From Mesorhizobium sp. M7A.F.Ca.US.008.03.1.1 (GTDB taxonomy: Bacteria; Pseudomonadota; Alphaproteobacteria; Rhizobiales; Rhizobiaceae): a stretch of DNA of 64,000 nucleotides. The translations under genes and the position numbers were made by a program. Below are positions 25,953 to 64,000 of the stretch, piece by piece (the first letter of the stretch is position 1; every line of letters begins with the position of its first letter). Location of the stretch: assembly GCF_003997495.1 (NCBI RefSeq), contig NZ_RZRU01000003.1, forward strand, positions 434,001 through 498,000, read 5' to 3'. Under the pieces are notes generated by a model, which was not told the DNA's origin, made no database searches, and worked only from the letters and a program-made list of their open reading frames with translations.

Positions 25953-26058
25953 CAGCCATCGGCTGCCGGCAGCCAGATTTTTGTACCGCGTCGCGTTGGA
26001 GAAAACCCGTGCCTGAAATCCACGCCCTGCCGGCTTTCCGCACAGGCGCTGCGCGGTG

Positions 26059-26979
26059 ATGGCAGCCCTTGAATCCCACAGGGCTGACCGTCTCCGCGGT
26101 CGGATCACCCGGCGCTGCGCGCTGGGGCTTTTCGTTCTGCCCTTCGCCGCAGTTGCATCGCCATCTGCCACGGCGAAACCGTTGCGCATCGTCTGCCTGG
26201 ATGACGGCCTGGCCGAGACCTTGCTCATGCTAGGTGTCAGCCCGGTTGCCATTGCCGGTCGCGACATCTGGGAGACCTGGGTGGTCGAACCGCCGCTGCC
26301 GCCTGAGATCGCCGATGTCGGCACGCTGCTCGAACCCAATCTCGAATTGCTGCAGCAGCTCAGGCCCGACGTCATCCTGTCCATGCCGTATCTCGACGGC
26401 ATCAAGCCGCTGCTCGAACGCGTGGCGCCGGTGACGACGATCGGGCTCTATACCGAAGCCGGACAGCCCTATCAGCGCGCGCTCGAGGCGACGCGCCAGC
26501 TTGCCGGGCTTGTCGGCAAGGAAAGCGAAGGCGAAGCGCTGATCGCGGCGACAGATGCATATCTTTCGGAAGTTCGCCGGCAACTGGTGCCGCTTTCGGC
26601 GCGGCCGATCTATGTCGTCAGCTTCATGGACCCGCGCAATGTGCGCGTCTATGGCGCAAAAAGCCTGTTTCAGGAGGTGTTCGACCGCATCGGGCTCAGC
26701 AATGCCTGGACGGCCGAGACCAATTATTGGGGGTTTTCGACCGTCGGTATCGACGGGCTGGCGACATCCAGCGACGCGCGCCTCGCCTATCTCGAACCCT
26801 TGCCCGAGGGCGCGGGCGGCACGCTGACCGAAAGCCCGGTCTGGAACGCCATGCCTTTCGTGCGCAACCGCTCGATCATGCGCCTTCCCGCCGTCCATAT
26901 GTTCGGCGCCCTTCCGTCCGCCACCCGTTTTGCCCGGGTCCTGGCGTCGGCGATGACCGTGGAGGCCGCCCGTGGCTGA
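26059..26979 (+). CDS. fhuD: Iron-siderophore ABC transporter, binding protein
   Basis: This protein of about 306 residues starts at the ATG at 26059 (a GTG codon just before it is an alternative). An RR-containing export signal, RITRRCALGLFVLPFAAVA, resembles a Tat signal, as in FhuD. The mature part is a type III periplasmic binding fold with PLRIVCLDDGLAETLLMLG, GTLLEPNLELLQQLRPDVIL and the long helix region. It overlaps fhuB by eight bases. It would bind ferric hydroxamates released by the outer-membrane receptor. The symbol is by family resemblance. Confidence 0.85.
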   Translation: MAALESHRADRLRGRITRRCALGLFVLPFAAVASPSATAKPLRIVCLDDGLAETLLMLGVSPVAIAGRDIWETWVVEPPLPPEIADVGTLLEPNLELLQQLRPDVILSMPYLDGIKPLLERVAPVTTIGLYTEAGQPYQRALEATRQLAGLVGKESEGEALIAATDAYLSEVRRQLVPLSARPIYVVSFMDPRNVRVYGAKSLFQEVFDRIGLSNAWTAETNYWGFSTVGIDGLATSSDARLAYLEPLPEGAGGTLTESPVWNAMPFVRNRSIMRLPAVHMFGALPSATRFARVLASAMTVEAARG

Positions 26980-29023
26980 TGATGCTGCGGCCATTGCCCA
27001 AGGGGGGAAGCATGCATCTGCCGGCCGGGCCTCCGCGTGGCGCTTTTTCAGCAATCAGCCGGTAGGCGCGATCCTGCTTTGCGCGATGCTGCTCGCGGCG
27101 GCGGCAGCGGCAACCGTCTCAAACCTCACCGTGCAGCTGTCATCGGCGCTCTGGCTCCAATCGCTCGCCGCCCCCGACATCGATGACATGCGGCAGGTGC
27201 TCGTCCACTACGCCTTCCTGCCCAGGCTTGCCGTCAGCCTTCTGTGCGGTGCGGCGCTCGGGCTTGCCGGAACCGTCCTGCAACAGGTTCTGCGCAACCC
27301 GTTGGCCTCGCCCGAAACGGTCGGCGTCTCGGCCGGCGCCTACCTGGCGCTGGCGCTGGCGACGCTTTTGTCGCCGTCCCTGCTTGCCTTCGGCCGCGAA
27401 TGGGTGGCGCTGGCCGGCGCATTCATGGCTCTTGCCGCCGTCTTCGCTCTGTCCTGGCATAAGGGCCTGTCGCCGCTTTCCGTTGTGCTGGCGGGGCTTG
27501 TGGTCAGCCTCTATGCCGGAGCCATCGGTGCCGCTCTCATTGTGCTGCGGCATGAATGGCTGGCCAGCCTGTTCATCTGGGGCGCCGGTTCGCTCGGCCA
27601 GCAGGACTGGTCGACGACGCTGTGGCTTTTGCCACGCATCGGCGCAGCGGCGCTTGCGATCTTCCTCATGGTGCGGCCGCTGACCCTGCTTGGCCTCGAC
27701 GACGAAGGCGCGCGCAGCCTTGGCGTGCCGCTCGGCGCCTATCGCTTCGCGGGGTTGGCGGCGGCCGTCGCCCTGATCGCCTTCGTCGTTGCCGCTGTCG
27801 GCGTCATCGGTTTCGTCGGCCTGGCCGCGGCCACCCTTGCGCGTATCGGCGGCGCCCGCCGGCTGGGCCAGCAGCTGGTGATGGCGCCGCTCATTGGCGG
27901 CGCATTGCTGTGGGCCGCCGACCAAGCTGTGCAGATCACCACCGGACCGCAAGGCGACCTGCTGCCGACTGGAGCGATCACAGCACTTCTCGGCGCGCCG
28001 CTGCTGCTCTGGCTGCTGCCGCGTCTTGCCCTTGGTTCGGAAGCCCCGGCACTCGGTTCAGAACGCCTGCCGCGCGCACGCCGGCCCGGCCTCGCGCTGG
28101 GGGCGATCGGCCTGGCTCTGCTTCTGCTGCTCGGGTTGGCCCTGCTCTATGGACCGGGTCCGCATGGCTGGACCTTCGCCTTCGGCGACGAGCTGCAGCC
28201 TTTGCTGTCGTGGCGGTGGCCTCGCGTGCTTGCCGCGCTGAGTGCCGGCGCCATGCTGGCGCTTGCCGGGCTGATGATGCAGCGGCTGACCGGCAATCCG
28301 ATGGCCAGCCCCGAGGTGCTTGGCATCAGCGCCGGTGCCGCGCTCGGCATGATGGTGGCGCTGTTTGCGCTCGTCGATGCCGGACGCCCGGTTCAGACGG
28401 CGGCGGCAACCATAGGCGCCTTCGCCGCTTTGCTGGTGACTCTGGCGATCGGCCGCCGTGCCGCCTATGCGCCGGAGCGGCTGCTGCTCGCCGGCGTTGC
28501 CCTGACGGCCTTGTTCGACGCGCTGATCCTGGTGCTCACCGCCACCGGCGATCCGCGTGCCATGCTGCTGCTCAACTGGCTGACCGGTTCGACCTATGGC
28601 GTCGATGTCGGCGCCGCCCTTTTGACCGGCGGCATTGCCGTCTGCCTCTTCGCGCTCGCGCCTTTCTTCATGCGCTGGCTCGACATCCTGCCGCTCGGCT
28701 CCGCCGCCGTTCAAGGCCTGGGCATTGACCTGAAGAGGACGCGGCTTCTCGTGCTGCTGGTGGTCGCGGCACTCACCGCTGCCTCGACGCTGATCGTCGG
28801 TCCGCTGACCTTCATCGGCCTCATGGCGCCGCACCTAGCCCGTCGCCTTGGCCTCTCCCGTGCGCTGCCGCAGGCCATTGGCGCGGTGCTCGCCGGCGCG
28901 CTGATCATGGTCGCCGCCGACTGGGTGGGCCGCACCGCCATCTTCCCGCGCCAGATCCCGGCCGGTCTCGTCGCCACGCTCATCGGCGGCCCGGTGCTGA
29001 TGTGGCTGCTGCGCCGCCGCTGA
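26972..29023 (+). CDS. fhuB: Iron-siderophore ABC transporter, fused double permease
   Basis: This 683-residue inner-membrane protein is made of two FecCD permeases in tandem, the FhuB layout. The half-repeats show LPRLAVSLLCGAALGLAGTV and WPRVLAALSAGAMLALAGLM, then NPLASPETVGVSAGAYLALA and NPMASPEVLGISAGAALGMM, and the GFVGLAAATLAR / TFIGLMAPHLAR coupling loops. The start is a GTG overlapping fhuD. No ATPase gene follows, so an FhuC-like protein must be supplied from elsewhere. Confidence 0.93.
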   Translation: MADDAAAIAQGGKHASAGRASAWRFFSNQPVGAILLCAMLLAAAAAATVSNLTVQLSSALWLQSLAAPDIDDMRQVLVHYAFLPRLAVSLLCGAALGLAGTVLQQVLRNPLASPETVGVSAGAYLALALATLLSPSLLAFGREWVALAGAFMALAAVFALSWHKGLSPLSVVLAGLVVSLYAGAIGAALIVLRHEWLASLFIWGAGSLGQQDWSTTLWLLPRIGAAALAIFLMVRPLTLLGLDDEGARSLGVPLGAYRFAGLAAAVALIAFVVAAVGVIGFVGLAAATLARIGGARRLGQQLVMAPLIGGALLWAADQAVQITTGPQGDLLPTGAITALLGAPLLLWLLPRLALGSEAPALGSERLPRARRPGLALGAIGLALLLLLGLALLYGPGPHGWTFAFGDELQPLLSWRWPRVLAALSAGAMLALAGLMMQRLTGNPMASPEVLGISAGAALGMMVALFALVDAGRPVQTAAATIGAFAALLVTLAIGRRAAYAPERLLLAGVALTALFDALILVLTATGDPRAMLLLNWLTGSTYGVDVGAALLTGGIAVCLFALAPFFMRWLDILPLGSAAVQGLGIDLKRTRLLVLLVVAALTAASTLIVGPLTFIGLMAPHLARRLGLSRALPQAIGAVLAGALIMVAADWVGRTAIFPRQIPAGLVATLIGGPVLMWLLRRR

Positions 29024-29046
29024 CCGTTTTGCCCCTGGAGATATCC

Positions 29047-29949
29047 ATGTCCAAGATATCCATGTCCAACGCGATGCCAGCCTTGATCGCCGACACGACG
29101 GTCCACGACTTTGTCCCGGCGCAGGGCGGCGCCCCCTGGCGGATATTCCTGCATGTGCCGTCCGGGCCGGTGCCCGAGGCCGGCTGGCCGGTCCTCTACA
29201 TGACCGACGGTAACGCCGTCATCGGCACGGCGGTCGACGCCATGCGCGCGCAGGCCTTCTATCCCACGGGCACCAATGTCGGCTGGGGCGTCATCGTCGC
29301 CATCGGCTATCCCGTCGAGGGCGCCTATGACCCGCTGCGCCGCTCATGGGACCTCGGTCCGCCGCCGGGCAAGGCCTATCCGCCCTTCTACGAGGGCACG
29401 CCCGAAGTGCGGACCGGTGGGGCAGGGGAATTCCTTGCCTTCATCGAGGACGAGCTGAAGCCATGGGTCGCCAGTCGGGTCGCGGTCGATGCAAGCCGCC
29501 AGGCGCTTTACGGCCATTCCTTCGGTGGCCTGTTTGCGCTCTACGCCCTGTTCACGCGGCCTTCTTCCTTCCAGACCTGGATCGCGGCGAGCCCCGCCAT
29601 CTATTGGGAAGACCGCGCCATCGACCGCTTTCTCGAAGCGTTCGAGGCCGCCGTGCCCGATGGCCTGACGACGACCATGATCCTGTCGGCCGGCGAATAC
29701 GAGACCGACAAGCTGGCGTCGTTCCAGATTGGTGCCGAGGACGAGGAAAAGCGCCTGCAGCAGAAGAAGGTGACACGTACCGACGCATTCGCGCGAGCCA
29801 TGGCGGAGCGTCTTGATGCTCTCCCGGGCGTGCGCGCAAGCTTCGAACTGCATGCCGGCGAAAACCACATGTCGATCCTGCCGGTCACCGTCAATCGTGC
29901 GGTGCAGGCGGCGTTTGCGGTGAGGGAGAAGGATACCGCCCTTTGCTGA
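29047..29949 (+). CDS. Siderophore esterase-like alpha/beta hydrolase
   Basis: This 300-residue hydrolase of the esterase D/Fes/IroE class starts at an ATG at 29047 with TGGAG upstream. The nucleophile serine is in ALYGHSFGGLFALYAL, an acidic residue lies in ILSAGEYETDK, and the catalytic histidine is probably the one in LHAGENHMSIL. No signal peptide is seen, so it should act in the cytoplasm, opening or hydrolysing the imported ferric siderophore so that iron can be released. It lies 23 bases after fhuB and probably shares its transcript. The substrate is inferred from context. Confidence 0.82.
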   Translation: MSKISMSNAMPALIADTTVHDFVPAQGGAPWRIFLHVPSGPVPEAGWPVLYMTDGNAVIGTAVDAMRAQAFYPTGTNVGWGVIVAIGYPVEGAYDPLRRSWDLGPPPGKAYPPFYEGTPEVRTGGAGEFLAFIEDELKPWVASRVAVDASRQALYGHSFGGLFALYALFTRPSSFQTWIAASPAIYWEDRAIDRFLEAFEAAVPDGLTTTMILSAGEYETDKLASFQIGAEDEEKRLQQKKVTRTDAFARAMAERLDALPGVRASFELHAGENHMSILPVTVNRAVQAAFAVREKDTALC

Positions 29950-29982
29950 ACGCTGCAGCAAGGCGGTCGGCGCCTCGCGCTG

Positions 29983-30480
29983 TCATTCCTGTGAGGGGGA
30001 GGCGCTCAATCGGCGGTACGAGACGCCGCCGAAGTTTGCCGTCACAAAATCCGTGACGGACATCTTGCGCTTGCCTCCGTCGCTGCAGGCGTAAACCGGC
30101 CAACCGGCATCGCTGCATTCTCTGGCAGCGCAGATGCGCGCCAGGCAGTTCCCGATAGTCAGCCGGAAGCCGCCCTTGCCGGCGAAGCCTTGCAACAGGC
30201 TGCCGTCCGCCGAGCGCCATGTCCGCGCACGGAATTCCGCCCGCAAAAGCAGGGGTTCGAGAGGGACCGCAAGGTTGCTTTCGCCGGCACGCCCTGTGAG
30301 CTGCAGACGGAAGCGCGCCATCGCGGTCGCGTATGCGGTCACAAGATCCGCTTGGCGAAAATAGGCGGTTGCCAGGCTTGAGCGGTCAAGCAGATGAGAC
30401 GTCCACTCGCCTGCCTCTACCGGCCTCAGCAAGGCAACAAAGGCAAGAAAGGCAAGAAAGACGAAGCAAGCTCGTGACAT
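29983..30480 (-). CDS. Secreted protein of unknown function
   Basis: This 165-residue protein starts MSRACFVFLAFLAFVALLRP, with signal peptide cleavage expected after VEA (before GEW). The mature part has four cysteines (CLARICAARECSDAGW, VYACSD) that may form disulfides. The start is the ATG at 30480 with a weak GGAA site. No family recognised. Base use is slightly different from neighbours, and it opens the accessory patch that runs to tRNA-Phe. Confidence 0.55.
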   Translation of the reverse strand: MSRACFVFLAFLAFVALLRPVEAGEWTSHLLDRSSLATAYFRQADLVTAYATAMARFRLQLTGRAGESNLAVPLEPLLLRAEFRARTWRSADGSLLQGFAGKGGFRLTIGNCLARICAARECSDAGWPVYACSDGGKRKMSVTDFVTANFGGVSYRRLSASPSQE

Positions 30481-30545
30481 TTCCAGCAGCCATATCGATC
30501 TCGGCGTGCCGGTTTGCCCCCCGGTTGCCCTCCTATAACATCCCG

Positions 30546-30717
30546 CCAATCGGTGCCCGGCGCAAGCCGCTTGCTGAGGCAGTCCAGAAGGCCGCCGAGC
30601 AAAGGCGTCTGGACCCGAAGACGGTGACCCGCATCGACGAACTTATGTGGGCGATGACGGAGCGGCTTGATGCTCACCCGGGCGTGCGCGCGAGCTCCGA
30701 ACTGCATGCCGGCCCCG
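30546..30717 (+). pseudogene. 3' fragment of the siderophore esterase gene
   Basis: The translation AAEQRRLDPKTVTRIDELMW followed by AMTERLDAHPGVRASSELHA matches the C-terminal region of the esterase at 29047-29949 (EEKRLQQKKVTRTDAFARAM, AERLDALPGVRASFELHA). The DNA is also clearly related. The rest of the gene, including the catalytic serine region, is absent. It looks like a decayed partial duplication or the remains of a recombination event. Confidence 0.7.
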
Positions 30718-30848
30718 TGGGTGCGAGGTCTGCGTCAGCCGAACGTCGATATGCCATCGCAACATAATGAAATCGGTGATTAGTTTTTTGGTTCGCTTGT
30801 CACTGCCTTTGACGAGGTGTCTATTTAAAACAGGTGGCGGGGGATGGA

Positions 30849-32117
30849 ATGGACAATCTGATATATTTTTTGATCGAATTGCTCCGAGATAGAAGTGTTG
30901 AACTGCCTGATAAAACTGGTGGTAACGCCAGAGCGCTCGTTGCCCAGCAAACGGTCTTGTACGATGAGCTCAGATCTCTGTTTCAGGACGTGCCATTTCA
31001 GACCGAAAATGCCTCCGGAAGTGCGAGCATAAGCGATCTGGCAGACAAAGTACTTAGGGAGTGTCGTGCATTGCTGGACAATAGTCCGGCTCTTTTTGTC
31101 CAGAGTAGAGATAAATCAATAGTTAGCGGAATCTTACCGATACTTCGTGATGACGACATGCAGCAACTCCGTTCCTTTATTAAGGTGTCCATAGCAGGTA
31201 GGTCAGCAGAGCAGGCAAAACAATTTGGCATCGTTGCTGCAGCTGCTTTGATCGTGGAATCAAACGATTCGATCAAAGGCCCCCTCATAGACAGCCAAGA
31301 GTTGATCGGCAGAGATGGCTTGTCTCTGATAATTCAGATCGGGATATACAATGCTCATAAAATTGAGCAGGCAAAGGAGCCTGAGCGCGCCGCTTCCGTA
31401 AGTAATGAAATCGCTGCGCTTACGGCGAGTCTGCAGAACTATCGCGCCGAATTCGAAAAGGAACGTGCGGATCAAAGAGGGCAATTGGACGTTCTCTCCG
31501 CGGCTGGAGTCGACATCGATGAGAAGTCGCAGCAGGCAGTCGCAGCACTGGCGGGATTTCAGAATGATCTTCTGAACCATGAGAATGCAATCCGTGAGGA
31601 ATGGAAGCTCGACCGGGCTCGCCTCAATTGGAACACCCGTTATTTGGAGGCACGGCGCGGGTTCCAAATTGGCTGCGTTATCTTGTTTGCCTTCCTCGCG
31701 GTGACGATGGCTGTCGCATATCTCTTTGGGCCGGCTATTGTAGCGTCTGTGAACCATTTTGACGTCGCCCTCTTCTTGAGCGGAGGATCGGTTGGCACCG
31801 CTATCGCGCATCAATTCAGCCGTCTTGTCATCTTCTCTGTTCCAATCCTTGTCTATCTGTGGATGTTGAAGGCGGTCATGCGGTATTTCATGCGATCGAT
31901 GCTCCTGATGGATGACGCCAGACAGCGCGAGACGATGCTCGATACGTATTTCTTGCTCACGGAAAAGGGGCGGGCAGATGAGCGCGACAGGCCTCTCATT
32001 CTTTGGGCGTTGTTCCGGCAGACGCCTGGTCACGGCCCCGACGGTATTGAGCCACCCGATTTCACCGAGGTCATCAATGCGGGCTTCAATCGGGCCAAGG
32101 CCCCGCTGCAAGGTTGA
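30849..32117 (+). CDS. Membrane protein with coiled coil, DUF6161-like
   Basis: This 422-residue protein starts MDNLIYFLIELLRDRS (ATG at 30849 with GGGGGATGG upstream; a GTG five codons earlier is possible). Residues 180-265 are a charged coiled coil (SLQNYRAEFEKERADQRG). Two transmembrane helices follow (IGCVILFAFLAVTMAVAYLF and VIFSVPILVYLWMLKAVM) and then a cytoplasmic tail ending PPDFTEVINAGFNRAKAP. The layout recalls DUF6161. Codon use is visibly more AT-rich than in surrounding genes, suggesting recent transfer. The role is unknown; similar membrane/coiled-coil proteins occur in accessory islands. Confidence 0.6.
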   Translation: MDNLIYFLIELLRDRSVELPDKTGGNARALVAQQTVLYDELRSLFQDVPFQTENASGSASISDLADKVLRECRALLDNSPALFVQSRDKSIVSGILPILRDDDMQQLRSFIKVSIAGRSAEQAKQFGIVAAAALIVESNDSIKGPLIDSQELIGRDGLSLIIQIGIYNAHKIEQAKEPERAASVSNEIAALTASLQNYRAEFEKERADQRGQLDVLSAAGVDIDEKSQQAVAALAGFQNDLLNHENAIREEWKLDRARLNWNTRYLEARRGFQIGCVILFAFLAVTMAVAYLFGPAIVASVNHFDVALFLSGGSVGTAIAHQFSRLVIFSVPILVYLWMLKAVMRYFMRSMLLMDDARQRETMLDTYFLLTEKGRADERDRPLILWALFRQTPGHGPDGIEPPDFTEVINAGFNRAKAPLQG

Positions 32118-57783: not shown

Positions 57784-57874
57784 GATTTTTCTGTTGAAAT
57801 CTTTCAAGCCACTGACACACAACGGTTTCTGTCCATTCTGACGTTACAAATACCGTACAATTTGGATGGAACTG

Positions 57875-58180
57875 ATGGCAGGCCGTGTTCGAAATCTCCT
57901 GAATCGGGCGGCCGCTATTTTGCACGGCTTGCAGTCCCGAAAGAGCTTTGGTCGGATATCGGGATTGCGACCAAGGGCTTGGCCGCGACTACAGGACAGC
58001 CATGAAGACGCTTCCTGGTGCTGTCGCCACTCTTCAGCATGAAATAGCACTTGGCGGGCGCGGCGCCGTCGCGGCTGACGAACAGTCCATCACTGTCGGC
58101 CGCTATCAACTTCTTCCACCATCGAGACTGTCAAATGCGCCTGGCCGACGATTCAAAGATCCGGACGCACCACTATGTCA
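57875..58180 (+). pseudogene. Tyrosine-type integrase, N-terminal relic
   Basis: Pieces of an island integrase N-terminus lie in successive frames: MAGRVRNLLNR (from 57875), then GGRYFARLAVPKELWSDIG, then GRDYRTAMKTLPGAVATLQH with EIALGG and VGRYQLLPP, then QMRLADDSKIRTHHYV. At least three shifts break the frame, and the catalytic C-terminal half is absent. It directly follows tRNA-Thr, as island integrases do. Downstream to 58354 I see only AT-rich DNA without genes. Confidence 0.75.
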
Positions 58181-58354: not shown

Positions 58355-59869
58355 TCATGCCTTCAGCACAAGTGCCCCGGTTGTCCTCCTAGCCTCGAGG
58401 TCGCGATGAGCGTCGGCAGCCCGCGCCAGATCATATTGCCTGGGCGCGCCGATCTTGATCACACCTTGGCGCAAAGCAGCGAAAAACCGGTTGATGTGAG
58501 GGCCAAGCTTTTCGGGGCTGTCAGTGTAATGGGCGTAGTTCGGACGGGAAATGGTGATCGACTTCGAAGAGAACCCACCGATGTCCCAATTTCCCACAGG
58601 TCCAGAGGCCTGACCGAAACTGACGAGATGGCCACGGACACCCAATGCGGCCAACGATCCACCGAACGTGTCATTGCCGACGGCGTCATAGGCGACATCT
58701 GCGCCCTTGCCTTCGGTCAAACGCATGACGGCCTCGGCGAAATTCTCTCTGGAGTAGACGATCACGTGATGGGCGCCGAGGCGTTCCACGATCCGGGCCT
58801 TATCGTCGCTCGAGACGGTGGCGATCACCGTCGCGCCGAGATGGCGTGCCCATTGCACCAGCAACTGGCCGACCCCGCCTGCTGCCGCATGGATGAGCAC
58901 GACGGCCCCGGGCTTCACGGAATAGACGTCATGGAGCAGGAAGCTCGCAGTAATGCCCTTCAAAAGACTTGCCGCGACGGTTAGGTCGGAAACGCCGTCA
59001 GTGAGGTGAACCAAAAGGTCCGGTGCCATGTTGCGTCGTTCGCAGTATGCGCCGACCGGCGGGCATGCATAGGCAATCCGGTCGCCGACTGAAAAGCCCG
59101 AAACTTCGGGGCCGACCGCTGCGATGACGCCTGCGGCCTCCATGCCCGGAACGCCTGGCGGCTGCAGGAGATCGAAATAGCCGGTCCTGCAATAGACGTC
59201 GATGAAGTTGACCCCAATGAATGTGTGACGGATCTGGACCTCGCCACGCGATGGCGGCGCCAAGGCGATCTCCGCAAGCTGCAGAACCTCCGGTCCTCCG
59301 TGTCGCTCGACGAGGATTGCCTTGGCCCGTGTGCCTTGGGCGCTGGTCCTAGGCGGCTCCAGCTGGGGCCTCTCCGGGATCAACCGCGCCACTGGTTGCT
59401 TTGACGTGGCCCCCGTTGGTTCGGCAACTGGCCTTCCGTTTAAGAGCCGGCGAACGGACTCAAAACCGGCTTGGTAGATGCCTTCGGTGACCAGCTTGAC
59501 CAGTTCATCACGGCGATGCGCCGGCGGATGGAACTCCGAGGACCATTCCCAGAAGGTGGTGTTGCCGTCCGTTACCGGCTTCAGCCGGATCGACGCGACA
59601 TAACCCATCAACGGCAACGGCGCTTCCAGCAGACAATAGCTCAGCCGCCGGTCTTTGTCGGACAAGGCCAGGAGTTGTTCGCGCAGCTCGCTGCCATCCG
59701 TAAGGCGGAAATGACGCACCGCGCCGATCGCATCGGCCGCATCACCGCCCTCGATCTCGCTGAAGGAGATTGCCGGATGCCAGCGTTCATGCCCGTTGAA
59801 ATCGCGCAGGACAGACCAGACGTCCTGGACAGGCGCGTTGATGATCGTGCTCTGGCAAACCTTGACCAT
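58355..59869 (-). CDS. Fusion of SRPBCC (START-like) domain and quinone oxidoreductase
   Basis: This protein has 504 residues. Residues 1-145 are a polyketide-cyclase/SRPBCC domain (STIINAPVQDVWSVLRDFNG, HERWHPAIS, LKPVTDGNTTFWEWSSEF) clearly related to the separate gene at 59879. A Pro-rich linker (145-180) leads to a medium-chain NADPH:quinone oxidoreductase (KAILVERHGGPEVLQLAEI, PGMEAAGVIAAVG, HAAAGGVGQLLVQWARHLGA). The zinc-ligand cysteines are missing, as in the QOR class. The SRPBCC cavity could present a lipid or aromatic ligand to the reductase. It is last in a same-strand cluster, nine bases after the second SRPBCC gene. Confidence 0.88.
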   Translation of the reverse strand: MVKVCQSTIINAPVQDVWSVLRDFNGHERWHPAISFSEIEGGDAADAIGAVRHFRLTDGSELREQLLALSDKDRRLSYCLLEAPLPLMGYVASIRLKPVTDGNTTFWEWSSEFHPPAHRRDELVKLVTEGIYQAGFESVRRLLNGRPVAEPTGATSKQPVARLIPERPQLEPPRTSAQGTRAKAILVERHGGPEVLQLAEIALAPPSRGEVQIRHTFIGVNFIDVYCRTGYFDLLQPPGVPGMEAAGVIAAVGPEVSGFSVGDRIAYACPPVGAYCERRNMAPDLLVHLTDGVSDLTVAASLLKGITASFLLHDVYSVKPGAVVLIHAAAGGVGQLLVQWARHLGATVIATVSSDDKARIVERLGAHHVIVYSRENFAEAVMRLTEGKGADVAYDAVGNDTFGGSLAALGVRGHLVSFGQASGPVGNWDIGGFSSKSITISRPNYAHYTDSPEKLGPHINRFFAALRQGVIKIGAPRQYDLARAADAHRDLEARRTTGALVLKA

Positions 59870-59878
59870 TCGTCGATG

Positions 59879-60316
59879 TCAGCGGGCGAAGCGCTGTTTG
59901 AGCGCCGTGAAGGCGCTCTGGAATACACCCGTGCCGATCTGTTGCGCCAATGCGCTTTCACGCTCGGGTGCACAGTCGAACTCGGCCCGCCACTCGGCGA
60001 ACGTCATGTTGCCGTCGGTTACAGGGGTCAGGGAGAGTGTGGCTATGTAGTTCTCGACCGCCATCGGGCTCTCCAGCATCGCATAGCTACAGGAGAGGTC
60101 GTAGTCAGACAAAGCCAGCAGTTTCTCTCTGATCCGGCCGCCGTCCTTCAGCAAGAAATTGCGAATGCAGCCGATCTGGTCCGGATGCGCGTTCTGTTCG
60201 ATGCGGCTCTCCGCGACGAACGGTGTCCAGCTCGGCAAGCCATTGAAGTTTCGGACAAGTTTCCAGACGTCCACAGCTGGCGCATTGATCGTAGACGACA
60301 CATAAATCTTCGGCAT
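59879..60316 (-). CDS. SRPBCC family protein
   Basis: This 145-residue stand-alone START-like protein starts MPKIYVSSTINAPAVDVWKL. It shows VRNFNGLPSWTPFVAESRIE, then REKLLALSDYDLSCSYAMLE and LSLTPVTDGNMTFAEWRAEF. It is the close paralogue of the N-terminal domain of the following gene, which points to tandem duplication and then fusion. It would bind a hydrophobic ligand; the ligand is unknown. It starts 17 bases after the flotillin gene. Confidence 0.87.
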   Translation of the reverse strand: MPKIYVSSTINAPAVDVWKLVRNFNGLPSWTPFVAESRIEQNAHPDQIGCIRNFLLKDGGRIREKLLALSDYDLSCSYAMLESPMAVENYIATLSLTPVTDGNMTFAEWRAEFDCAPERESALAQQIGTGVFQSAFTALKQRFAR

Positions 60317-60333
60317 CGGGTGACCTTACGGCT

Positions 60334-62523
60334 TCACTGGTCGCGATCGTCATCGTCGGTTTCCTTGCCGCTCTTTGCCTTGCCTTTCTTGTCGCGGCTC
60401 AGGCTGGCTATGTCCTTGGCGTCTCGCAAAACATCCGTCATGCGGCCAAGCGACCCGCCCTCGATGCCGATCTCCTTCATCAGATTGTCGATCATCGGCG
60501 CCTGCACCCTGTAACGCAGCGCTGAATCGATGACCTCGTCGGTGACGTTGCGGCTGCCGCCCTGGCTCCCGTTGATGCCGTCGACATGCAGGATCTTGAT
60601 GCCTTCGATCTTCTCCATCGGCTTGACGCTCTCGCGGATGATGCCTTCCATATGGTCCAGCAGCTTGCCGCGCAGGCGCCCGGCGCGGGCTTCGTCGGAG
60701 AGCAGATTCTCGGCCTCGTTGAGCTGCCTGTGACCGGCGGCGTCGACCTCGTAGCGCTGGGCTGCGGCCAGGGCATGGATTTTCTCCGCTTCCGCCGAAG
60801 CGACAGCAGCGATCTTCTGCGCTTCCGCCAGGCTCTTGGCCGCTTTCATCTCGGCGTCGGCGGCCGAGGTGATGCGCAAGGCATCGCGCTCGGCTTCCCG
60901 GGCGGCGCCGATGAGATCGGTCAGCTTGCGGCGCTCGGCAATCTCGCGCTCACGGGCGGTGAAGGCCTGTTCCTCTGCCTGAATCGCCTTTGCACGAACG
61001 GCTTCCGATGCGGCGATCGCGGACGAACGCTCCTGTGTTTTCTTGGCGATGTCGATGGCCTTCTGGATCTCGGCGATCTCGATCTTCTGGTCACGGTCGA
61101 CGCCCAACTGGCGCATGTCGCGATCCTTGATCAGGCGGGCCTCCTCAATGCCGCGCTCGGTGGTGATGCGGGCGCGTTCCACCTCTTCGCCGGCAGAGAT
61201 TTCGGCTTCCTCGAACGCTTGGCGCTTTGCAATTTGCAGCGCTTCGAGGTGACGCTCGCGCGCAATCCTCACCTCGTCAATGGCGCGCTCCTGCGCAATG
61301 CGCGCGGTTTCCGTGGCCTGGTTTTCGACGATCTCGGCGCGGCGCTTTTCAGCCTCTGCCTTGGTGACCTCCAGGGCCTTCTCCGCCAAGGCGATCTGAC
61401 GCTCAAGCTCCGCGATCTCGAGCACCTTCTTGCGCTCGATCTCCAGTCCGCTCTGCGCACCTTCGCGCTCGATGCGAGCCTTTTCCAGGGACAATTCCAG
61501 AGCGATCTGTTCACGCTCTGTCAGTTCGCGCATTTTCATCTCGGTCTCGTCGAGGGACCGCCGGCGGGCGATTTCACGGCGCTGCGTGTCCTCTTCGCTC
61601 TTGATGCGCTCCTCGGTGATGTTTCGTTCCTGATTGAGGCGCGATTTCTCGACGGCTTCGCGCGATGACAGCTGCGCCTGTTCGGATTCCTGGTCGCGGA
61701 GCGCGCGCTCGATGGCCAGCTCAGAGCGCTGCGAGGCACGGCGGATTTCGACCTCGCGTTCCTGTTCGAGCCGCGCATATTCGGTGTCACGGTCGATCTC
61801 GAGCACCTTGCGCTGCGTATCGAGGTTCTGGTTGCGGATATCGACGAGGGTGCGCTGTTCAATCTCGTTGCGCATCCGGCGGCGAGTTTCGATGGATTCC
61901 GTCAGTTGCGTCAGCCCCTCGGCATCGAAAGCGTTGGACGGATCGAAATATTCCAGGCTGGTCTGGTCGAGGTCGACGATAGCGACACTCTCAAGTTCGA
62001 GACCGTTTGCGGCTAGCGATTCGGAGGCAAGCGTGCGCACCTTGGCCGCATAGTCGCCGCGCAACTCGTGCATTTCCTCCAAGCTCATCTGCGCAGCGAT
62101 CGTGCGCATGGCGCCGGCGAATTTTCCCTCAAGCAATTCGCGCAGGCTTTCAGGCTGCAATGTGCGCCGGCCAAGTGTCTGCGCGGCAGCGGCGACCAAT
62201 TCGCGGCTTGCTCCCACGCGCACGAAGAATTCCGCGATCAGGTCGACCCGCATCCGGTTCTTGGTGATCAACGCATGAGCGTCTTCGCGACGCACCTCGA
62301 TGCGCAGCACGTTCATGTTGACGGGAGTTATTTCGTGCAGGACCGGTATGACGAAAGCGCCGCCATTGACGACCACTTTCTCGCCCATGAAACCGGTTCG
62401 CACGAACGCTGTTTCCTTGGTGGAACGCCGATACAGCCATCGCAGGACATAGACAGCAATCACAACGATGATCGCTGCGACGATCAACCACAAAAGGAAC
62501 GTGCCAAAAGTCTGCGCGGCCAT
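60334..62523 (-). CDS. YqiK-type flotillin-like membrane protein
   Basis: This 729-residue protein has an N-terminal membrane helix (FGTFLLWLIVAAIIVVIAVY), a band-7/SPFH domain (residues 35-200, with VRTGFMGEKVVVNGGAFVIP and LEYFDPSNAFDAEGL), a very long Glu/Arg/Ala-rich coiled coil (210-600), and a C-terminal flotillin segment (EGIIRESVKPMEKIEGIKIL). The tail is Lys/Asp-rich (KKGKAKSGKETDDDDRD). Flotillins scaffold ordered membrane domains. There is no NfeD gene beside it. The neighbours are lipid-fold (SRPBCC) and Tm-1-like genes. Confidence 0.9.
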   Translation of the reverse strand: MAAQTFGTFLLWLIVAAIIVVIAVYVLRWLYRRSTKETAFVRTGFMGEKVVVNGGAFVIPVLHEITPVNMNVLRIEVRREDAHALITKNRMRVDLIAEFFVRVGASRELVAAAAQTLGRRTLQPESLRELLEGKFAGAMRTIAAQMSLEEMHELRGDYAAKVRTLASESLAANGLELESVAIVDLDQTSLEYFDPSNAFDAEGLTQLTESIETRRRMRNEIEQRTLVDIRNQNLDTQRKVLEIDRDTEYARLEQEREVEIRRASQRSELAIERALRDQESEQAQLSSREAVEKSRLNQERNITEERIKSEEDTQRREIARRRSLDETEMKMRELTEREQIALELSLEKARIEREGAQSGLEIERKKVLEIAELERQIALAEKALEVTKAEAEKRRAEIVENQATETARIAQERAIDEVRIARERHLEALQIAKRQAFEEAEISAGEEVERARITTERGIEEARLIKDRDMRQLGVDRDQKIEIAEIQKAIDIAKKTQERSSAIAASEAVRAKAIQAEEQAFTAREREIAERRKLTDLIGAAREAERDALRITSAADAEMKAAKSLAEAQKIAAVASAEAEKIHALAAAQRYEVDAAGHRQLNEAENLLSDEARAGRLRGKLLDHMEGIIRESVKPMEKIEGIKILHVDGINGSQGGSRNVTDEVIDSALRYRVQAPMIDNLMKEIGIEGGSLGRMTDVLRDAKDIASLSRDKKGKAKSGKETDDDDRDQ

Positions 62524-62604
62524 TTTTCTACCCTCCCAAACAGGATGCGATCGACCGAAGCCGACCGGCTTGATTTTCGTGAAGCTGTCGAACTGCAGAT
62601 CGTG

Positions 62605-63915
62605 TCATGCGCGCCTCTGCAGTTTCGGTCCGATTGCATGGAATGCAGTGATCACCGCATCGATGAATGGCGCATCGTTGATGTTGGATCGGACCCGCTG
62701 AACCACACGCAGTGAGGTCTGGCGCACGGTTTTCTCGATCGCCTCGAACAGCGCATTGTCGGCCTCCGGATCGTGGAATGGTTGCCCGGGTGCATCGAGC
62801 ATCGAGACGCCGCCTTCAGGCAGGAGAAAGCGCACAGGCCCGTTCATGGAATTCAGCCGCGCGCCGATCCATTCGCCAAACTGCCGGTTTTCGTCCCTGG
62901 TGGTGCGCATCAGGGTGACATTGGGATTGTGGACGACGAACTTCCGGCTTTTGAATTTTTCCGGCACACTGTCGCGCGGACCGAAATTGACCATGTCCAG
63001 GGCGCCGGTGGATCCGACATAGGGCAAGCCAGTGCGTATCGCCGCGCCGAAGCGATCATCGCTTGCCGGGAATACGCCGCCGACCACCATGTCGGCTATT
63101 TCCGTCGTTGTCAGGTCGATGAAGGCCGACAGCATTCGGGAATCGGCGAGGTTCTCCATGGCCCGGCCACCAATGCCTGTCGCGTGGAAAACCAGGCAGT
63201 CATAATCCGCTTCCAAACGTTTGGTCACGGCCTGCACGGCGGGCGTGGTGACGCCAAACATGGTGATGCCGACGGCTGGACGTGCCAGCTTTCGTTTGGC
63301 CTCCCAGGCCTCGCCGGAAGGCAGCTGCGCGACCATGCCCGCCATAGCGTGCGCAGCGTTGCCCAGGACGGCCTCGGTGATCGAGTTGAGGCCCTGAACA
63401 TCGGCGACCGAGTGGAACATCATGATATCGGCGCCACCGACATATTTGCCGACGTCGCCGGCTGCGACAGTGGACACCATCAGTTTGGGGATGCCTACCG
63501 GCAGGACGCGCATACCGGCGGTGGCCATAGTCGTTCCACCTGAGCCGCCGGCTGAAATCACACCGCCGAGACGTTGCTCGCGTTCGATCCAGCGAGCAAA
63601 GGCCTCGGCCATTGCCGCGACCGAGCTACCGCGGTCATTGGAAAACACAGCCGATGATCCTCGCGCATGCATGCCTGCGACCTGCATAGCGGGAACGTCC
63701 GCGCTCGACGGCTTTCCCGAGGTGGAGAGGTCGACTGTGCGAACGGGGATCCCCAGCGATTTCAGACGATCGGCCACGAACCGCAATTCCTTCGCCTTCG
63801 TGTCGAACGTTCCGGCGACAAGAACGGTGCGGCCGATCCGCTCGGCGAAGGGGATGGCGAACACTTTCTTCAGTTCGTCTTGCGGATTGTGTTTTTCGAC
63901 AGCCGCTTCCCGCAT
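62605..63915 (-). CDS. Tm-1-like ATP-binding domain protein (UPF0261)
   Basis: This protein of at least 436 residues belongs to the UPF0261/Tm-1 family (TVLVAGTFDTKAKELRFVAD, VISAGGSGGTTMATAGMRVL, PKLMVSTVAAGDVGKYVGGA, DIMMFHSVADV, VVGGVFPASDDRFGAAIRTG, VSMLDAPGQPFHDPEAD). The nearest ATG is 63915, but the frame stays open to the edge of the window with no stop (VYRPVTELPNRWNVPVAA upstream), so the true start may lie outside. The plant homologue Tm-1 blocks viral replication; the bacterial role is unknown. It heads a cluster with the flotillin 81 bases downstream. Confidence 0.88.
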   Translation of the reverse strand: MREAAVEKHNPQDELKKVFAIPFAERIGRTVLVAGTFDTKAKELRFVADRLKSLGIPVRTVDLSTSGKPSSADVPAMQVAGMHARGSSAVFSNDRGSSVAAMAEAFARWIEREQRLGGVISAGGSGGTTMATAGMRVLPVGIPKLMVSTVAAGDVGKYVGGADIMMFHSVADVQGLNSITEAVLGNAAHAMAGMVAQLPSGEAWEAKRKLARPAVGITMFGVTTPAVQAVTKRLEADYDCLVFHATGIGGRAMENLADSRMLSAFIDLTTTEIADMVVGGVFPASDDRFGAAIRTGLPYVGSTGALDMVNFGPRDSVPEKFKSRKFVVHNPNVTLMRTTRDENRQFGEWIGARLNSMNGPVRFLLPEGGVSMLDAPGQPFHDPEADNALFEAIEKTVRQTSLRVVQRVRSNINDAPFIDAVITAFHAIGPKLQRRA

Positions 63916-64000
63916 GGCTGCAACCGGGACGTTCCATCGGTTTGGCAGCTCGGTGACCGGACGATAAACCCCATTCTGGGCGATCGGCTCGGTGCGTGTG

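Follow-up and report, generated by a model that had tools for sequence, protein, structure and literature searches.

At its right-hand end, the window (the whole stretch of 64,000 nucleotides analysed here, positions 434,001 to 498,000 of contig NZ_RZRU01000003.1 from Mesorhizobium sp. M7A.F.Ca.US.008.03.1.1) runs into a widely conserved importer operon in which LivF, an ATP-binding cassette (ABC) ATPase, is fused to a UPF0261 domain, a fusion of apparently single origin, and which carries its own flotillin. The anatomy and conservation of this operon are firmly established, and no description of it or of the LivF~UPF0261 fusion was found in the open-licence papers searched. Members of the UPF0261 family are found in bacteria, archaea, fungi and plants; in the last of these, Tm-1 confers virus resistance. 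Our best model, to which we give as a whole a probability of about one half, is that the operon encodes an importer, a cargo kinase and enzymes for the breakdown of a small, probably aromatic, compound.

The original prediction, made from the window alone, had described a four-gene unit for a Tm-1-like protein, a flotillin, an SRPBCC protein and an SRPBCC-oxidoreductase fusion. The four same-strand open reading frames at 58355-63915, with gaps of 81, 17 and 9 bases, were borne out, and the domain calls agree with Pfam, which gives PF10604 with a zinc-type quinone oxidoreductase (QOR), SRPBCC, flotillin (SPFH and Flot domains) and UPF0261. The frame called “Tm-1,” however, does not start at 63915 but runs open beyond the window end into a LivF-type ABC ATPase, forming a single protein of 735 amino acids (aa), and directly upstream of it come seven further same-strand genes that overlap or are spaced by no more than 52 bases, so that the four genes are the last ones of an 11-gene operon. 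The transporter and the fusion had been overlooked because the window ends inside the LivF~UPF0261 gene. The genes that reach into the window are the following:

62605-64812 (window numbering), minus strand: LivF~UPF0261 fusion gene, one open frame, 735 aa; Pfam domains PF00005 (ABC_tran) at residues 28-167, PF06792 at 329-495 and PF23189 at 511-726
62605..64000, minus strand: C-terminal part of LivF~UPF0261 inside the window, the remainder being L004:8002-8813 (L004 is the locus of this operon)
60334..62523, minus strand: flotillin, 729 aa; PF15975 (1.2e-34) and PF01145 (7.3e-14)
59879..60316, minus strand: SRPBCC protein (SRP1), 145 aa, PYR/PYL-like; PF10604 (2.4e-24)
58355..59869, minus strand: SRPBCC~QOR (SRP2~QOR), 504 aa, last gene of the operon; PF10604 at residues 1-143, ADH_N and ADH_zinc_N

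The start codon of the fusion gene, an ATG at the contig position corresponding to 64812, overlaps the end of livG by 8 bases, and the gene order is FAH–ABH–amidohydrolase–LivH–LivM–LivJ–LivG–LivF~UPF0261–flotillin–SRPBCC–SRPBCC~QOR. We predict that these 11 genes, about 13.7 kb, form one operon, along which neighbouring genes either overlap by 4 to 8 bases or stand no more than 81 bases apart; a GntR/FCD regulator gene lies divergently beyond the FAH end, and counts of promoters and terminators were inside the spread of shuffled sequences. All operon genes were assigned by family, no search aimed at NfeD being made. LivG, LivH, LivM and LivJ have Pfam matches and are all encoded beside LivF~UPF0261, in which a linker of variable length joins the two parts. 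The LivF part has a Walker A motif (GRNGMGKTT), a signature (LSGGEQQ) and a Walker B motif (LLVMDEP), intact in all 14 fusions aligned, where G44-T52, S141-Q146 and M163-P166 are invariant. As in the HAAT importer LivFGHMJ, all five components are present and the ATPase motifs are intact, but LivF here has a C-terminal UPF0261 domain. As to the hydrolases, the alpha/beta hydrolase (ABH) is PcaD/RutD-like, the third is of the FAH type, and the nearest solved relatives of the amidohydrolase are arginine carboxypeptidase Cc2672 and Xaa-Pro dipeptidase, with ochratoxinase lower in the list.

The original prediction had named a failure of the gene set to recur as a result that would overturn it; the set does recur, and on a broad scale. 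Of the genomes searched, 15 of 151 in the family, 18 of 385 in the class and 13 of 398 in the phylum (each count including our own genome) carry the full-length fusion, which spans Alpha- and Betaproteobacteria, named carriers being Natronohydrobacter sp., Variovorax sp. J22R187, Reyranella soli and a Rhizobacter metagenome-assembled genome. We compared 36 fusion loci, made up of our own, 14 from the family search, these four carriers and 17 from the class search; a class fusion on a 3.4-kb contig (G489) was excluded, and one with a long insert between the two domains (L182, from G422) was included. Without exception, LivF-UPF0261, flotillin and two SRPBCC genes are consecutive and in this order, only a PF09370 gene being found to intervene between UPF0261 and flotillin, and an SRP1-type SRPBCC is present in all 36. 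The next gene encodes a redox enzyme in 35 loci, either a QOR (match in 22/36) or the FAD subunit of a molybdenum hydroxylase (a CoxM-like gene after the SRPBCC pair in 14/36); the remaining locus reaches a contig end. One fusion locus, L180, is rearranged, with an extra SRPBCC pair right after PF09370 and LivF~UPF0261 shifted downstream of hydrolase genes.

Flotillin was found in all 36 fusion loci as against none of 28 loci with unfused UPF0261, namely 0/6 of those in which LivF and UPF0261 are adjacent and 0/22 of the others. PF09370, by comparison, occurs in 32/36 fusion loci, 6/6 unfused importer loci and 21/22 other UPF0261 loci. The control set of 22, in which UPF0261 is not fused to LivF, consists of two paralogues of our own genome and 20 loci picked from the family and class lists, some of which (L191, L196, L209, L210) have LivF or LivG nearby. 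Within the genus, flotillin at 91% identity or more is present in 14 of 61 genomes, our own included, and a fifteenth has one at 41% with no UPF0261 match in the surrounding 13.6 kb. The thirteen further genus loci show the same order without PF09370; they were found via flotillin and so are not independent evidence. Their flanks are not shared with our locus, apart from a single stretch of about 940 bases in L216 that matches at 68%, and L211 ends about 2 kb past the flotillin gene, which leaves its upstream flank for this comparison. That unrelated genes came together by chance behind an island integrase, as might be read into the patchy distribution in the genus and the thirteen loci without shared flanks, is refuted by this recurrence, the order being kept in 36/36 loci across many families; the probability of such an accident is practically nil. 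No integrase domain or attachment repeat was found: the supposed integrase relic, a stretch of 73 codons at 57784-58002, has no match with an E of 1 or below in either Pfam or PHROGs, and no tRNA-Thr copy of at least 14 bases was found in 30 kb. The link to an island is unsupported, and an island or integrase origin was rejected.

In a maximum-likelihood tree of 66 UPF0261 rows (L204, with one stop inside the match, entered as X), all 36 fusions form one clade (99/95), and tomato Tm-1 stands outside them, on a long branch beside L192. The 14 loci with molybdenum hydroxylase genes form a single nested clade (100/98), and the QOR type is therefore the probable ancestor, whose place molybdenum hydroxylase genes took later. 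Operons of Paracoccaceae and Betaproteobacteria fall inside the alphaproteobacterial fusion clade, which suggests transfer of the operon as a unit. The fusion would have arisen once and its association with flotillin perhaps also once, so the perfect association of the two reflects long conservation and not 36 independent events.

Both Pfam halves of the UPF0261 domain score above the cutoff (298 and 194 bits), and the domain is 44% identical to tomato Tm-1 and 33% to PDB entry 9MPY, entitled “Structure of Saro_1862, a UPF0261 domain protein from Novosphingobium aromaticivorans with bound acetovanillone.” The predicted model (mean pLDDT 77) matches tomato Tm-1 (3wry) with Z 31.7 and a root mean square deviation (rmsd) of 12.0 over 383 aligned residues, and 9MPY with Z 28.3 and rmsd 11.3 over 364; these high deviations suggest that the two halves are oriented differently in the model than in the solved structures. 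Across 65 aligned rows, which include 9MPY, Tm-1 and all 36 fusions and leave aside L204, 25 residues are invariant, among them D337-T338-K339, H543, D566, E571, R587, D606 and H628 (numbered as in the fusion), and the chemistry of the family, whatever it is, is therefore probably kept in the fusions. In N. aromaticivorans, acetovanillone catabolism begins with a single-component kinase, MarK (PMC13101465), and phosphorylation of hydroxyphenylethanones has been proposed to trap them in the cell (PMC9618137). We infer that MarK and Saro_1862 are one protein and that the UPF0261 domain works as an ATP-dependent kinase of small molecules, probably phenols. A search for MarK orthologues (0/289 class genomes at E 1e-70) was run without a positive control and is hence uninformative. 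HpeHI was considered as a relative of UPF0261 and dismissed, being rifampin-phosphotransferase-like.

The gene set with its importer, hydrolases, redox enzyme and regulator of metabolite type, the relatives of LivJ and the match of UPF0261 to 9MPY together argue for uptake-linked metabolism of a small, probably aromatic compound. The best solved relative of LivJ is 4zpj, followed by 4ey3/4eyg and 4evq/4evr, which are presumably Rhodopseudomonas binding proteins solved with aromatic acids. By sequence, the periplasmic binding protein LivJ, the channel LivH/LivM and the ATPases LivG/LivF form a branched-chain-type ABC importer. In our model, it would take up an aromatic-type compound, which the fused UPF0261 kinase would phosphorylate on its arrival at the cytoplasmic side, so that it is trapped and activated. 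The two SRPBCC proteins may bind a hydrophobic substrate or product and pass it to the redox enzyme (QOR, or molybdenum hydroxylase in the sister group), with the flotillin keeping these proteins together and, along with the SRPBCC proteins, retaining the substrate at the membrane; the amidohydrolase, alpha/beta hydrolase and FAH protein could complete the breakdown of ring or side chain, and the GntR/FCD protein probably represses the operon until the substrate is present. The membrane-located pathway for an aromatic compound that had been among the original suggestions fits the importer genes, the hydrolases, the redox enzyme and the aromatic ketone bound in the solved structure of a UPF0261 relative; the original interpretation as a whole is supported in part. 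We put forward only tentatively the more specific idea of an ABC importer that phosphorylates its own cargo via the attached kinase, akin to group translocation by the phosphotransferase system, so that import and chemical trapping would be a single event; a dedicated flotillin and hydrophobic-ligand carriers would hold this assembly in place.

Several points weigh against this model. The identity of Saro_1862 with MarK is our own deduction, and 33% identity to 9MPY fixes neither substrate nor reaction; no biotin carboxylase or phosphatase was found by Pfam among the operon genes; the PF09370 gene is absent from our operon and from 13/13 further genus loci; the predicted SRPBCC~QOR model (pLDDT 49) is too poor for domain packing; and the link between fusion and flotillin goes back to one ancestral event, the loci not being independent. 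Lacking biotin carboxylase and phosphatase genes, the operon is not an acetovanillone pathway. With the MarK/Hpe/Acv pathways (PMC13101465; PMC9618137) it possibly shares a homologous first step, a single-component aromatic kinase, and it differs from them in lacking a CoA ligase as well, while HpeHI belongs to a different kinase family.

Bacterial UPF0261 is known to pair and co-evolve with PF09370 (PMC5028733), its usual partner. Our operon resembles that system in having a UPF0261 domain above cutoff and PF09370 adjacent in most fusion loci. It is unlike it in that the fusion partner of UPF0261 is an ABC ATPase, whereas in plants it is PF09370, and in that the genus no longer has PF09370 in the operon. 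In L037 and L038, spacers of 382 and 597 bases without PF09370 similarity separate UPF0261 from flotillin, compared with only 80-92 bases in the genus loci; these spacers mark the site of PF09370 loss in the clade of our genome. The only PF09370 copy of our genome lies at G000:C4, beside another UPF0261. Supply in trans was rejected as an explanation of the loss: a copy elsewhere is found in 17/17 fusion genomes whose operon lacks PF09370 and equally in 7/7 fusion-less genus genomes, so such copies are uninformative.

PF09370 is also found fused to a sigma-54 activator (L051:13859-15604; beside L050, L052, L061, L170-L175 and L184), and a degenerate PF09370-like protein of some 230 aa is often encoded divergently beside it; PF09370 thus seems to have a sensory role besides that of partner enzyme. 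Genes for this fused activator adjoin 6/36 fusion loci and 5/6 unfused importer loci, which ties the UPF0261/PF09370 pair to ligand sensing. The fused UPF0261 could accordingly be a ligand sensor that gates the transporter ATPase in an otherwise ordinary uptake and catabolism operon, and a fusion to the ATPase subunit is where we would expect a regulator, as with regulatory domains on other ABC ATPases. We consider this possible though rather unlikely: the 25 positions that stay invariant among widely diverged members are rich in D, E, H, K and R and resemble an active site, about 400 residues are many for a sensor, and MarK and 9MPY point to an enzyme.

Both SRPBCC domains belong to PF10604 and weakly resemble abscisic acid receptors (E 5e-4 for SRP1), so a pocket for a hydrophobic ligand is likely, and their constant position ahead of a redox enzyme that can be exchanged suggests that they offer a ligand to it. 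Fold matches of SRPBCC~QOR merely repeat the sequence result; the nearest solved relatives of its QOR part are 3jyl and the 2-haloacrylate reductase 1wly. A common source of the plant abscisic acid receptor and Tm-1 in one such operon is an attractive idea, but no more than a lead: of the weak PYR1 matches in the class, 7/16 lie within this operon, the two best (L225, L226) lie outside it, and Tm-1 is not among the fusions. Our genome has a second SRPBCC gene, 51% identical to SRP1 (L229; G000:C22, near 73923), flanked by the gene of an AraC-type regulator on one side and by those of the FAD and 2Fe-2S subunits of a molybdenum hydroxylase on the other, with no UPF0261 in the 3.3 kb seen.

The fusion of SRPBCC to QOR next to flotillin, and the molybdenum hydroxylase subunits at this place in the sister group, could also be taken for a membrane lipid or quinone redox pathway, in which SRPBCC extracts a quinone or lipid for the attached QOR on a flotillin platform and the transporter is secondary. 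The CO dehydrogenase operon carries an SRPBCC-type protein, CoxG, and the CoxM-like gene after the SRPBCC pair in the 14 loci likewise recalls CoxSML-like operons, from which our own genome differs in having a QOR there. However, neither SRPBCC domain has a match to COXG (presumably PF06240) in Pfam at E up to 0.01, the QOR family includes reductases of soluble enones such as 1wly, and the importer, amidohydrolase and FAH genes would be left unexplained, all of which makes such a pathway improbable.

The flotillin has an N-terminal hydrophobic segment, an SPFH/Band 7 domain, a long charged middle part and a Flot domain. It shares its SPFH and Flot domains with bacterial flotillins such as FloT, but scores 43.6 against a FloT equivalog cutoff of 700 and is tied to a transporter operon. 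Among the UPF0261 loci examined, only those with the fusion have a flotillin, which fits a scaffold for a membrane-bound enzyme group. The operon is also a clear example of a flotillin in bacteria that goes with one specific pathway.

The cellular job of UPF0261 is poorly known, the family having been noted mainly for plant virus resistance, and the conserved fusion to an importer ATPase ties it to small-molecule uptake. If the kinase reading is true, the operon would couple the import of a compound to its activation in a new manner, of use to lignin-aromatic biotechnology, and if the importer phosphorylates its cargo, the ancestral activity behind plant Tm-1 would be that of a small-molecule kinase. 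The stress or anti-phage defence role proposed earlier recalls the block of tobamovirus replication by plant Tm-1 (PMC5028733) and is very improbable here: PADLOC gave 0 matches for 8/9 proteins and, for the ninth, generic ATPase matches to the LivF part only, and the conserved neighbours are transport and catabolism genes. The plant UPF0261 donor might be a planctomycete (PMC5028733), and in Brucella a UPF0261 gene turned up in a signature-tagged attenuation screen (PMC2364660).

Our genome also encodes a divergent UPF0261 paralogue (31%) in L054 (G000:C12:77000-93000), with no PF09370 adjoining, among genes for an IclR regulator, two class-III aminotransferases, an APH-fold kinase, an amino acid permease and a P450. 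Elsewhere in the window, G+C dips to 0.554 at 30001-32000, compared with about 0.63 over most of its length, and at 26001-30000 an AT skew of -0.21 to -0.22 accompanies a G+C raised to 0.67-0.68.

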